This document shows, one piece after another, positions 44,009 through 46,690 of a DNA stretch of 64,000 nucleotides (positions are counted from its first letter, which is position 1; each line of letters starts with the position of its first letter). The position numbers and the translations under genes are program-made. The notes below the pieces were generated by a model, which saw only the letters and a program-made list of their open reading frames with translations, did not search any database and had not been told where the DNA came from. Source of the stretch: Holdemania massiliensis AP2 (GTDB lineage: Bacteria; Bacillota_I; Bacilli_A; Erysipelotrichales; Erysipelotrichaceae); contig NZ_HE998567.1 in assembly GCF_000327285.1 (NCBI RefSeq), positions 59,136 through 123,135 of the forward strand, in the 5' to 3' direction.

Positions 44009-44021
44009 GCAGGATACGGAA

Positions 44022-44048
44022 AAGGAGAGCGCAGGCTCTCCTTTTTTT
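44022..44048 (+). terminator. Terminator of the BMP gene
   Basis: AAGGAGAGC (44022-44030) pairs perfectly with GCTCTCCTT (44034-44042), then T residues. Confidence 0.9.
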
Positions 44049-44196
44049 CGTCAGTCGAGAACAGACTGAGCGTTTCCGATCAGTTTGTGCTGAGGCACTG
44101 CAGAAATAGCCCAGCTTCGGGGCAACTCTACCGTCAGTAGGTGTTCTTTTTTCCGCTGTTCGACTACAATCAAAGGCAGACGAGGAGGTCAAAGTC

Positions 44197-45276
44197 ATGG
44201 ATCAAGTCAAGATTGGCCGTTTTATAGCCGCATGCAGAAAAGCCGGCGGATGGACACAGAGTGAAATTGCAGCGCAGCTGGGAGTGAGTGATAAAGCCGT
44301 TTCTAAATGGGAAACGGGAAAATCTCTGCCGGACTATCCGCTGCTGCTGCCGTTGTGCAGTTTATTGAAGATTACATTGAATGAACTGCTGTTGGCAGAG
44401 CGGATCAGTGATGCAGAATATAAGGAAAAATCAGATCAGATTCTTTATGATATGATCGGTCAATGGCTGGGACAGGATCAAGCTTTGCCGCAAAGGAAGA
44501 GGAATCATTCCTGTCCGGTATTAAACGTATCGCATGTCAGAAAAATCTATACAGAGGAGGAAGTAAAGACCCTGGCGGTGGATGACGTCAGCTTTGAAGT
44601 GGAAAAAGGCAGCTTCATCGGGATTATGGGCGCCTCCGGGTGTGGGAAGACGACGTTGCTGAAATTGATTGCCACGATGGATCGCGTATCAGAGGGAACG
44701 ATTGAAATTGCCGGTCAGCCGCTGCAGGCTTTAACTGAACCCCAGTTAGCGCAGTTCCGCGGCACTCATCTGGGGTTCATCTTTCAGGAATACAATCTGC
44801 TGGATACGCTGACGCTGCGTGAGAACATTGCGCTGGCGCTGGCGATTCGCTCAACCGCGCCGGCTCATTCGCAGAAGTTCATTGAAGAACTGGCCGAAAA
44901 GTTTGAAATTGCGGAAGTTTTGGATCAATTTCCCTACGCGGTTTCAGGCGGACAGCGGCAGCGCTGTGCCTGTGCCCGGGCGATTGCCTCGCATCCCAGC
45001 CTGATTCTGGCTGATGAACCGACCGGGGCTCTGGACAGCCGCAGCGCCCGGCAGCTGCTGGAAATGCTGGTCATGCTGCGCAGAGATTACGGTGCGACGC
45101 TGTTAATGGCAACGCATGATGTGATGTCAGCCAGTTACTGCGACCGGATTTTGTTCATGCGGGATGGCCGCATTCAGACCGAGCTTGAACGCGGTTCGTT
45201 AAGCAAGCAGGCGTATTTTACAGAGATCTTAAAGACGCTGACAGACGTCACAGAGCGGGCAGTTCATGGCGCTTAA
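44197..45276 (+). CDS. XRE regulator fused to an ABC transporter ATPase
   Basis: 359 residues with two modules. Residues 1-65 are a XRE-type helix-turn-helix (IGRFIAACRKAGGWTQSEIAAQLGVSDKAVSKWETGKSLP). After a linker (to about 100) comes a LolD/BceA-type ABC ATPase: Walker A GASGCGKTT, Q-loop FQEYNLL, signature VSGGQRQR, Walker B LILADEPTGALD, H-loop MATHD. The fusion suggests a transporter that reads out its own state to transcription; no experimental support is known to me. GGAGG precedes ATG 44197. The permease follows, overlapping by 11 bases. Confidence 0.9.
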   Translation: MDQVKIGRFIAACRKAGGWTQSEIAAQLGVSDKAVSKWETGKSLPDYPLLLPLCSLLKITLNELLLAERISDAEYKEKSDQILYDMIGQWLGQDQALPQRKRNHSCPVLNVSHVRKIYTEEEVKTLAVDDVSFEVEKGSFIGIMGASGCGKTTLLKLIATMDRVSEGTIEIAGQPLQALTEPQLAQFRGTHLGFIFQEYNLLDTLTLRENIALALAIRSTAPAHSQKFIEELAEKFEIAEVLDQFPYAVSGGQRQRCACARAIASHPSLILADEPTGALDSRSARQLLEMLVMLRRDYGATLLMATHDVMSASYCDRILFMRDGRIQTELERGSLSKQAYFTEILKTLTDVTERAVHGA

Positions 45277-46594
45277 ACTGATCTGGCGCAATATTCAGCG
45301 CAGTGGGGGTGACTATCTGCTTTTGGCCCTGACGGTAACCCTGTTGGTCGCGATTCTGTGTCTGGCCAACTGCATCGCCGTTTTCGGCAGCATCCAGGCT
45401 GGTTTTCAGACTGCGTCCCTGCCGGTTCTGATCGTGATCATCTTATTCCTTTTGATCAATACAATTCATACGTTCATGCTCCATCAGCGCGCGCAAGCGC
45501 TGGCTGTGACCTTGCTGCTGGGGATGGAGCGCAGGAAGCTGCGGCGGTTTTATCTGGGTGAGCTGTGCGTGATTGGTATCGGCTGTTTTCTGCTCGGCAC
45601 GCTGCTCGGCGCCAGTTTATTCAGCGTGGTCATTTCTCCGCTGCTGCAGATCAGGACAAACACATCCTGGCTCTCATTGATGAGAAAAAGCATTCTTCAA
45701 ACCGGCGGTTACTTCTTTCTGGCCGAGCTGCTGTCAGGAATGCGGATTGACCGCCAGCTGGCAAGCCTGCAGATTAGTCAGCTGCTTGTTCAGAAGCGCC
45801 GCAATCATCCGATTCACAGGAAAAATCTGCGGTTCTGGCAGCGATGCTTTACGATCAGTTTTGCGCTTTTTCTGATCTTTTTGATCGGGATAGCGGCGGC
45901 GCAGGGAGTGCTGCTGACCCTTTGTGTCGGCGGAATCGCTTTGCCGATGCTGGCATGCATCATCACTTTCTATCAAAGTCTTTACGCTTATTTTTCTCAT
46001 CTGAGATCGGCTGAAAAATCAGGCCGGATCAAAGGCAATCGTTTGCTTTGGCTTGCCGAATTGACAACCGGAGCGAAAACCAGCACCAATCTCAACGCGC
46101 TGCTGTGCGTCTGTCTGGTGTTTGCCGCATCGGCTTTCGGGTTCGGCATGCTGCTTTTGGACAGCGGGGTAAACTTGTTTGAAGGATCCATGCAGACCTA
46201 TATGGGGTTTATGCAGATCAGTCTTTGCCTGATATTTCTGATCCTCTACTTTTCTGCGCTGTCGCTTTTACAGATCTTGGATCTGAAGCGGCAGGCCCGC
46301 TCCTTGAAAATTCTGCATGCTTTGGGGAAAGATCGTGCATCATTGAATCGGTGGGTGTGCATTCAGACCTTGTTTCATCTGGGACTTCCGGCTGGGATGG
46401 GACTGGCGCTGTTAACGATAGCGGCGCCGCTGATCAATTTCCGATTGAATGCTGAAGCATCGGCGTTTCGGCAAAATCAGGTGCTGCGGCTTTGCGGAAG
46501 CTTCGGATTCTGCTTCTGCGCATTATATCTGGTCTATTTCTTAGCTGTAACGGTGATCAGCAGGCGGAATTTAAAGTCGGTGATTGAAAGCTGA
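45266..46594 (+). CDS. FtsX-type ABC permease, short BceB-like
   Basis: 442 residues, about ten hydrophobic segments. It resembles the permease partner of antimicrobial-peptide or MacB-type transporters, but is shorter than BceB (about 650) and has no large extracellular loop. It overlaps the XRE-ATPase gene, so the two form one unit. Substrate unknown; peptide-antibiotic detoxification is a guess from family. Confidence 0.8.
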   Translation: MALKLIWRNIQRSGGDYLLLALTVTLLVAILCLANCIAVFGSIQAGFQTASLPVLIVIILFLLINTIHTFMLHQRAQALAVTLLLGMERRKLRRFYLGELCVIGIGCFLLGTLLGASLFSVVISPLLQIRTNTSWLSLMRKSILQTGGYFFLAELLSGMRIDRQLASLQISQLLVQKRRNHPIHRKNLRFWQRCFTISFALFLIFLIGIAAAQGVLLTLCVGGIALPMLACIITFYQSLYAYFSHLRSAEKSGRIKGNRLLWLAELTTGAKTSTNLNALLCVCLVFAASAFGFGMLLLDSGVNLFEGSMQTYMGFMQISLCLIFLILYFSALSLLQILDLKRQARSLKILHALGKDRASLNRWVCIQTLFHLGLPAGMGLALLTIAAPLINFRLNAEASAFRQNQVLRLCGSFGFCFCALYLVYFLAVTVISRRNLKSVIES

Positions 46595-46653: not shown

Positions 46654-46690
46654 AAGCCGGATTTCTTTTCCCGAGAGGTTCGGTTTTTTC
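46654..46690 (+). terminator. Possible terminator after the permease gene
   Basis: AGCCGGA pairs with TTCGGTT (two G-U pairs), then six T. A second hairpin, CTGCGGTT/AACCGCAG (46597-46629), lies before it without a T run. Confidence 0.55.

Follow-up and report, generated by a model that had tools for sequence, protein, structure and literature searches.

Bce-type systems (BceAB-BceRS), which serve the sensing of antimicrobial peptides and the resistance to them in Bacillota, are the closest described relatives of the locus studied here. Most, though not all, bce operons have a neighbouring two-component system (PMC12484072). The hallmark of Bce permeases is an extracellular domain of 200-250 aa, located between TM7 and TM8 (PMC12484072). 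This domain was reported to set the substrate spectrum and to be needed for BceB function in B. subtilis (PMC12484072, PMC3023708). In the canonical modules, BceS was proposed to sense the cycling of BceAB, and BceR upregulates bceAB (PMC10314905). Flux sensing by Bce systems is normally read via a multi-protein relay, which is hard to dissect. Two other kinds of system share some features with the locus. BcrR and other transmembrane one-component regulators (TTRs) are membrane-tied helix-turn-helix (HTH) regulators, which control an ABC transporter without a kinase. The type VII ABC systems, including MacB, LolCDE, FtsEX, YbbAP, and HrtBA, combine an FtsX-type permease with a related ATPase.

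The DNA analysed here (the window) is a stretch of 64,000 nucleotides from the gut bacterium Holdemania massiliensis AP2. Its positions 44197-46594 hold a two-gene cassette, in which an XRE-type HTH is fused to an ABC ATPase. The cassette represents a rare and new form of the Bce-type sensing transporters. It resembles BceAB-BceRS in the BceA-like ATPase, the 10-TM permease of BceB fold, the overlap of the ATPase and permease genes, and a proposed positive self-regulation by transporter activity. However, the extracellular domain of ~200 aa and an adjacent BceRS are both missing. The DNA-binding output is covalently joined to the ATPase, and it is an XRE domain rather than a phospho-activated response regulator. 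No Bce-type two-component system was found next to the cassette; the nearest two-component system in the window is of the LytTR/GHKL type and lies ~10 kb off. Most loci of the fusion homologues likewise have no adjoining two-component system. Ordinary BceAB pairs, whose permeases have 672 aa, also exist in this genome, and one of them adjoins a BceRS-like kinase/regulator pair (recognised by eye). At L038:6791-12242 (G000:C4, ~146-151 kb) of this genome, a BceAB pair with a BceRS-like pair has a separate 253-aa XRE gene nearby, an unfused counterpart of the fusion arrangement.

BcrR stands alone as a protein and has TM helices of its own, whereas the fused HTH has none and would reach the membrane only via docking of the ATPase on the permease. 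TTRs are defined by having both TM helices and a DNA-binding domain in a single chain, and neither Pfam nor the structural model gave a TM region in the fusion chain. The type VII systems gave weaker matches than BceAB, and none of the matched structures carries a fused DNA-binding domain. Text searches across 5.4 million open-access papers turned up no account of an FtsX-type ABC ATPase with a fused DNA-binding domain.

The fusion protein and its short permease

The block consists of two overlapping ORFs, ORF1 and ORF2. An earlier note on this DNA had described a complete XRE HTH joined to a complete LolD/BceA-type ATPase in one chain, and an overlapping small FtsX-type permease without the large extracellular domain. 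The domain searches, alignments, and structure matches agree with this description. The features of the two genes are as follows.

44182..44189, + strand: ribosome-binding site GAGGAGGT, read from the sequence
44197..45276, + strand: XRE-BceA fusion gene (ORF1, 359 aa), from sequence, Pfam, homologue alignment, and structure matches
44224..44388, + strand: XRE helix-turn-helix, residues 10-64, with recognition helix DKAVSKWETGKS; Pfam HTH_3, E 2.1e-12; model pLDDT mostly 77-94
44395..44514, + strand: linker, with a conserved helix (residues 67-92) and then a variable stretch (residues 93-106, 27% identity), from model and alignment
44515..45186, + strand: BceA-type ABC ATPase domain, residues 107-330, with all catalytic motifs intact, from Pfam, alignment, and structure matches
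45266..46594, + strand: 10-TM permease of BceB fold without the extracellular domain (ORF2, 442 aa), overlapping the fusion gene by 11 nt, from Pfam, model, and structure matches
46157..46186, + strand: short TM7-TM8 loop at the position of the ~200-aa extracellular domain of BceB, from model and alignment
46654..46686, + strand: terminator-like hairpin 3' of the permease gene, from a pattern scan in which such sites are no more frequent than in shuffles

ORF1 carries the HTH_3 domain at its N-terminal side, followed by the short variable linker and the complete ABC ATPase. The HTH_3 match lies above the Pfam cutoff, in line with an XRE (Cro/CI-type) fold, and residues 129-276 match ABC_tran with an E value of 1e-32. 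The ATPase contains an intact Walker A motif (GASGCGKT, residues 145-152), Q-loop (Q197), signature (SGGQRQ), Walker B (LILADE), D-loop (ALDS), and H-loop (H307). Nearly all of these motif residues are invariant in the alignment of 13 homologues. The predicted structure of the whole chain is of modest confidence (pLDDT 63). Judged from sequence, the XRE and ABC ATPase parts are a true single-chain, two-domain fusion.

Mean pairwise identity among the fusion homologues is 77% for the HTH, 70% for the ATPase, and 48% for the permease, and the recognition helix is nearly invariant among the aligned homologues. Separate translation of the XRE part was rejected. The two domains share one frame in 17 homologues, and the junction has no conserved internal Met. 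Since conservation of the HTH equals or exceeds that of the ATPase, and the junction lacks a conserved Met, a separately translated HTH is not supported, and the single-chain reading of the earlier note withstood this objection.

The assignment of the ATPase to the LolD/BceA type could be sharpened to BceA. The best PDB match is BceA (7tcg_B, E 9e-72 over residues 103-347), as against ~1e-44 for LolD. BceA and PsdA are the closest solved relatives in profile searches, and the top Foldseek matches of the ATPase model are also BceA.

The permease has FtsX as its sole Pfam match (E 3e-9). Its closest solved relatives in profile searches are BceB (7tcg, E 2.7e-12) and PsdB. The AlphaFold model, of moderate confidence (pLDDT 70), has 10 TM helices. 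Foldseek returned five significant matches for this model, all of them BceB, and the alignment with 7tch_A gave a Z score of 28.6 over 414 aligned residues (VIA-align). The TM7-TM8 loop has ~9-14 aa, as against ~210 aa in the full-size permeases encoded by this genome, and it is short in all of the aligned fusion-partner permeases (12/12). Among 180 Lachnospiraceae genomes, the strong short-permease matches (E < 1e-100) are exclusively fusion partners; the other permease homologues lie nearly all in frames of 650-780 aa. In every homologue with a readable downstream gene, a BceB-fold permease gene overlaps or abuts the fusion gene. Since the extracellular domain is the described hallmark of the Bce family (PMC12484072), the pair was kept apart from the canonical Bce modules. 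It is related to them and may work in the same way. With the extracellular domain absent, substrate and sensing may differ entirely from those of the Bce systems.

The candidate operator and its relatives

The region upstream of the fusion gene contains the following features.

44020..44048, + strand: intrinsic-terminator-like hairpin closing the upstream bmp gene (GGAGAGCGCAGGCTCTCC and a T run), an inverted repeat read from the sequence and not in the pattern scan
44128..44140, + strand: candidate operator palindrome CTACCGTCAGTAG, family consensus CTACC-N3-GGTAG, from comparative sequence evidence, searches, and shuffles
44165..44170, + strand: predicted -10 element TACAAT, from the promoter alignment, with the start predicted

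A site like ACTCTACC-N3-GGTAGGTGTTC is found upstream of every fusion gene examined, in flanking regions that are mostly unrelated. Comparative evidence gives the dyad-symmetric, operator-like site near its own promoter that is characteristic of an XRE regulator. In all 17 aligned fusion promoters, the distance from the operator to the ATG is 67-70 nt, and a -10-like hexamer begins 30-31 nt from the palindrome centre. At this common spacing, TATGAT in L081 and TAAGAT in L085 were read by eye, the script having chosen other hexamers. Relative to the predicted start, the palindrome is centred at ~-42/-43 and spans ~-48 to -36. The 17 promoters have a good -10 and no recognisable -35 (TTGACA-like) element.

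With up to two mismatches allowed, the operator is the only such site in the 3.8-Mb genome, and the pattern was absent from 100 shuffles of the window. Six exact sites were found in 299 Lachnospiraceae genomes; five of them precede a fusion, and one precedes a decayed fusion remnant. In G827 (L199:480-660) the operator stands with ~35 codons of a decayed fusion, the only case in which an operator was found with neither an intact nor a truncated gene. The strict core WACY-N3-RGTW is present upstream of 18 of 19 fusions, and the remaining one (L086) has one mismatch.

The N-terminal part of the fusion (residues 1-86/97), with the HTH and the linker helix, is ~45-60% identical to a common family of ~204-aa XRE proteins with two C-terminal TM helices. 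The strict core lies upstream of 45 of 46 genes of these membrane-anchored XRE proteins, as compared with 3% of shuffles and random windows. This test was used since a looser operator score (8/10) was too permissive, being reached by 27% of shuffles. The anchored family of Clostridia (L089-L157) shares with the fusions the HTH, the linker helix, the WACY-N3-RGTW core, and a similar distance from operator to gene. However, it has no ABC ATPase, its half-site is mostly CAACC, and its operator is often doubled: two copies, usually 26 bp apart, are present in 27/46 anchored-XRE promoters but in 3/19 fusions, the deepest fusion branch (L179) among them. The T or A of the half-site tracks residue 33 of the recognition helix, K or R (Fisher p 5e-9, kinship ignored). 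The fusions and the K33-type proteins mostly have CTACC; the R33-type proteins mostly have CAACC. These data suggest a likely DNA-recognition rule for a large anchored-XRE family of gut Clostridia, with an ACC-N3-GGT core and K33/R33 choosing T/A. Conservation and the cognate sites of these relatives strongly suggest that the fused HTH binds the candidate operator.

An independent fusion was observed in a Tenericutes MAG (L151:1521-2490), in which a similar XRE HTH is joined to an ABC-2-type, not a Bce-type, ATPase. A gene for a large membrane protein, ABC-2 permease-like, lies downstream, and TATACC-N3-GGTATA lies upstream. In that assembly, the reading frame is interrupted close to the D-loop. 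No XRE and ABC-2 fusion of this type was found in 295 Bacillota genomes at E<=1e-62, a set without a positive control.

Possible working of the cassette

The analyses point to a self-contained, autoregulated cassette of two genes, in which the XRE regulator is built into the ATPase, and a separate kinase and response regulator are absent. This explanation as a whole is given a probability of about 0.6. The transporter would probably control its own gene via the fused HTH, without the usual separate sensor proteins. Two fused HTHs, one on each ATPase of an ATPase dimer, would recognise CTACC-N3-GGTAG in the promoter of their own gene. From a position centred near -42, next to the absent -35, they could activate the promoter in a class II manner, as lambda CI does at PRM.

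The state of the ATPase and its docking on the permease may set whether the two HTHs are both well placed and free to bind. Working or overloaded transporters would then raise their own synthesis, in a one-protein version of Bce flux sensing. Alternatively, an excess of undocked ATPase might tune synthesis to the amount of permease. A link of the transporter to DNA binding, which the earlier note had raised, is plausible; that nucleotide state or permease docking governs the binding has about even odds. In one further form of the proposal, the motor subunit would itself be the transcription factor of a one-protein flux sensor. ATP-driven dimerisation and docking would switch operator binding, replacing the Bce kinase and regulator, and the promoter would be brought to the membrane. 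This form is tentative, its chances falling slightly short of even. The cassette places input (the ATPase), anchor (the permease), and output (the HTH) in two proteins with a defined candidate operator, and the question whether an ABC transporter can signal its working state directly to DNA could be reduced to a simple reporter and binding experiment with it.

Many XRE proteins are repressors, and the earlier note had called this one a repressor. In simple negative autoregulation, the HTH would repress its own promoter, holding transporter levels down, until inducer binding or permease docking relieves it. The operator abuts the -35 region, where it could hinder RNA polymerase. Nevertheless, the palindrome at ~-48 to -36 is upstream of the -35/-10 core, its distance from the -10 varies by no more than 1 nt even between diverged promoters, and a good -10 without a -35 makes the promoter look activator-dependent. 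An operator at ~-42 together with a missing -35 makes an activator likelier than a repressor, which is a likelihood and not a proof; activation appears about twice as probable as repression. The repressor label is thus disfavoured, and negative autoregulation seems rather unlikely. A little less probable again is that the cassette serves stoichiometry only, the HTH sensing ATPase that is undocked from the permease, with no response to substrate or ATP cycling. The overlap and co-conservation of the two genes would fit this, as would a permease without the substrate-determining domain. However, the invariance of the catalytic motifs, the H-loop among them, makes it likely that the ATPase cycles, and there is no obvious reason for promoter control if docking alone matters.

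The remaining two readings are very improbable. The HTH could be a passive leftover of gene fusion on an ordinary transporter, for which no supporting point was found; no other part of the system is as conserved, its recognition helix hardly varies, and the homologues retain a matching operator. The presence of a DNA-binding domain might also suggest a soluble, DNA-associated ABC protein (ABC-F or SMC-like) outside any transporter. This is the least credible of all, given that the best-matching proteins are BceA and other ATPases of FtsX-type transporters, and that the permease gene adjoins the fusion wherever the downstream gene is readable.

Distribution, origin, and insertion site

Genome searches for the two-domain architecture, as the earlier note had proposed, identified at least 17 full-length fusions, with the short permease as the downstream partner. 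They occur in Holdemania, Erysipelotrichales, and Lachnospiraceae/Clostridia, and so in two classes. Among the carriers are two other species of the genus (G079 and G105) and an Erysipelotrichales isolate (G087/L080). The Clostridia that carry them are mostly Lachnospiraceae (L079, L081-L088, G589, G848, G856, and G755). The fusion was found in 4/146 genomes of the Erysipelotrichaceae (the family of the window), 2/392 of a phylum sample, and 8/299 Lachnospiraceae (1/8 truncated), counts that refer to samples of genomes and not to censuses. In the genomes sampled, the architecture is rare, yet conserved. It is therefore not a common transporter family, nor one described in the open-access papers searched, so that this objection, which the earlier note had foreseen, does not apply.

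The fused ATPases group together in one clade of the ATPase-domain tree (support 100/98); row L069 is a second fusion copy of G079. A single origin of the fusions appears supported. The nearest other ATPases are unfused, mostly in frames of 250-285 aa.

Empty sites in relatives support an insertion of the block into a conserved gene order, which the earlier note had also suspected. In G035, G005, G003, and G008, the bmp lipoprotein gene is followed by an rbsA-like ATPase gene after 167-379 bp. Three species of the genus bear the fusion, and in each of them the cassette separates these two genes. G079 (L034:10976-14689) has four extra genes between the cassette and the rbsA-like gene, PTS/antiterminator-like and metallo-hydrolase-like by eye, which suggests that the spot is open to insertion. 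With its own predicted promoter and a preceding terminator-like hairpin, the cassette is probably regulated apart from the surrounding nucleoside-type importer.

Next to some homologous cassettes (in L084, L087, L079, and L088) lie genes for BlaI/BlaR1, for a two-component system with an ABC ATPase, or for an ABC or ABC-2 transporter. Such neighbours hint at an envelope-stress setting, inconsistently across loci. Carriage as phage or plasmid cargo was rejected: the permease had no match in phages, and three plasmid matches were weak (23% identity). In an IMG/VR contig (L182:546-2840), a fusion gene is cut at its DEPTGA (Walker B) codons right next to the gene for a large serine recombinase, and it thus resembles an integration target more than cargo. 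Another fusion copy, in G683 (L180), is cut at residue 217.
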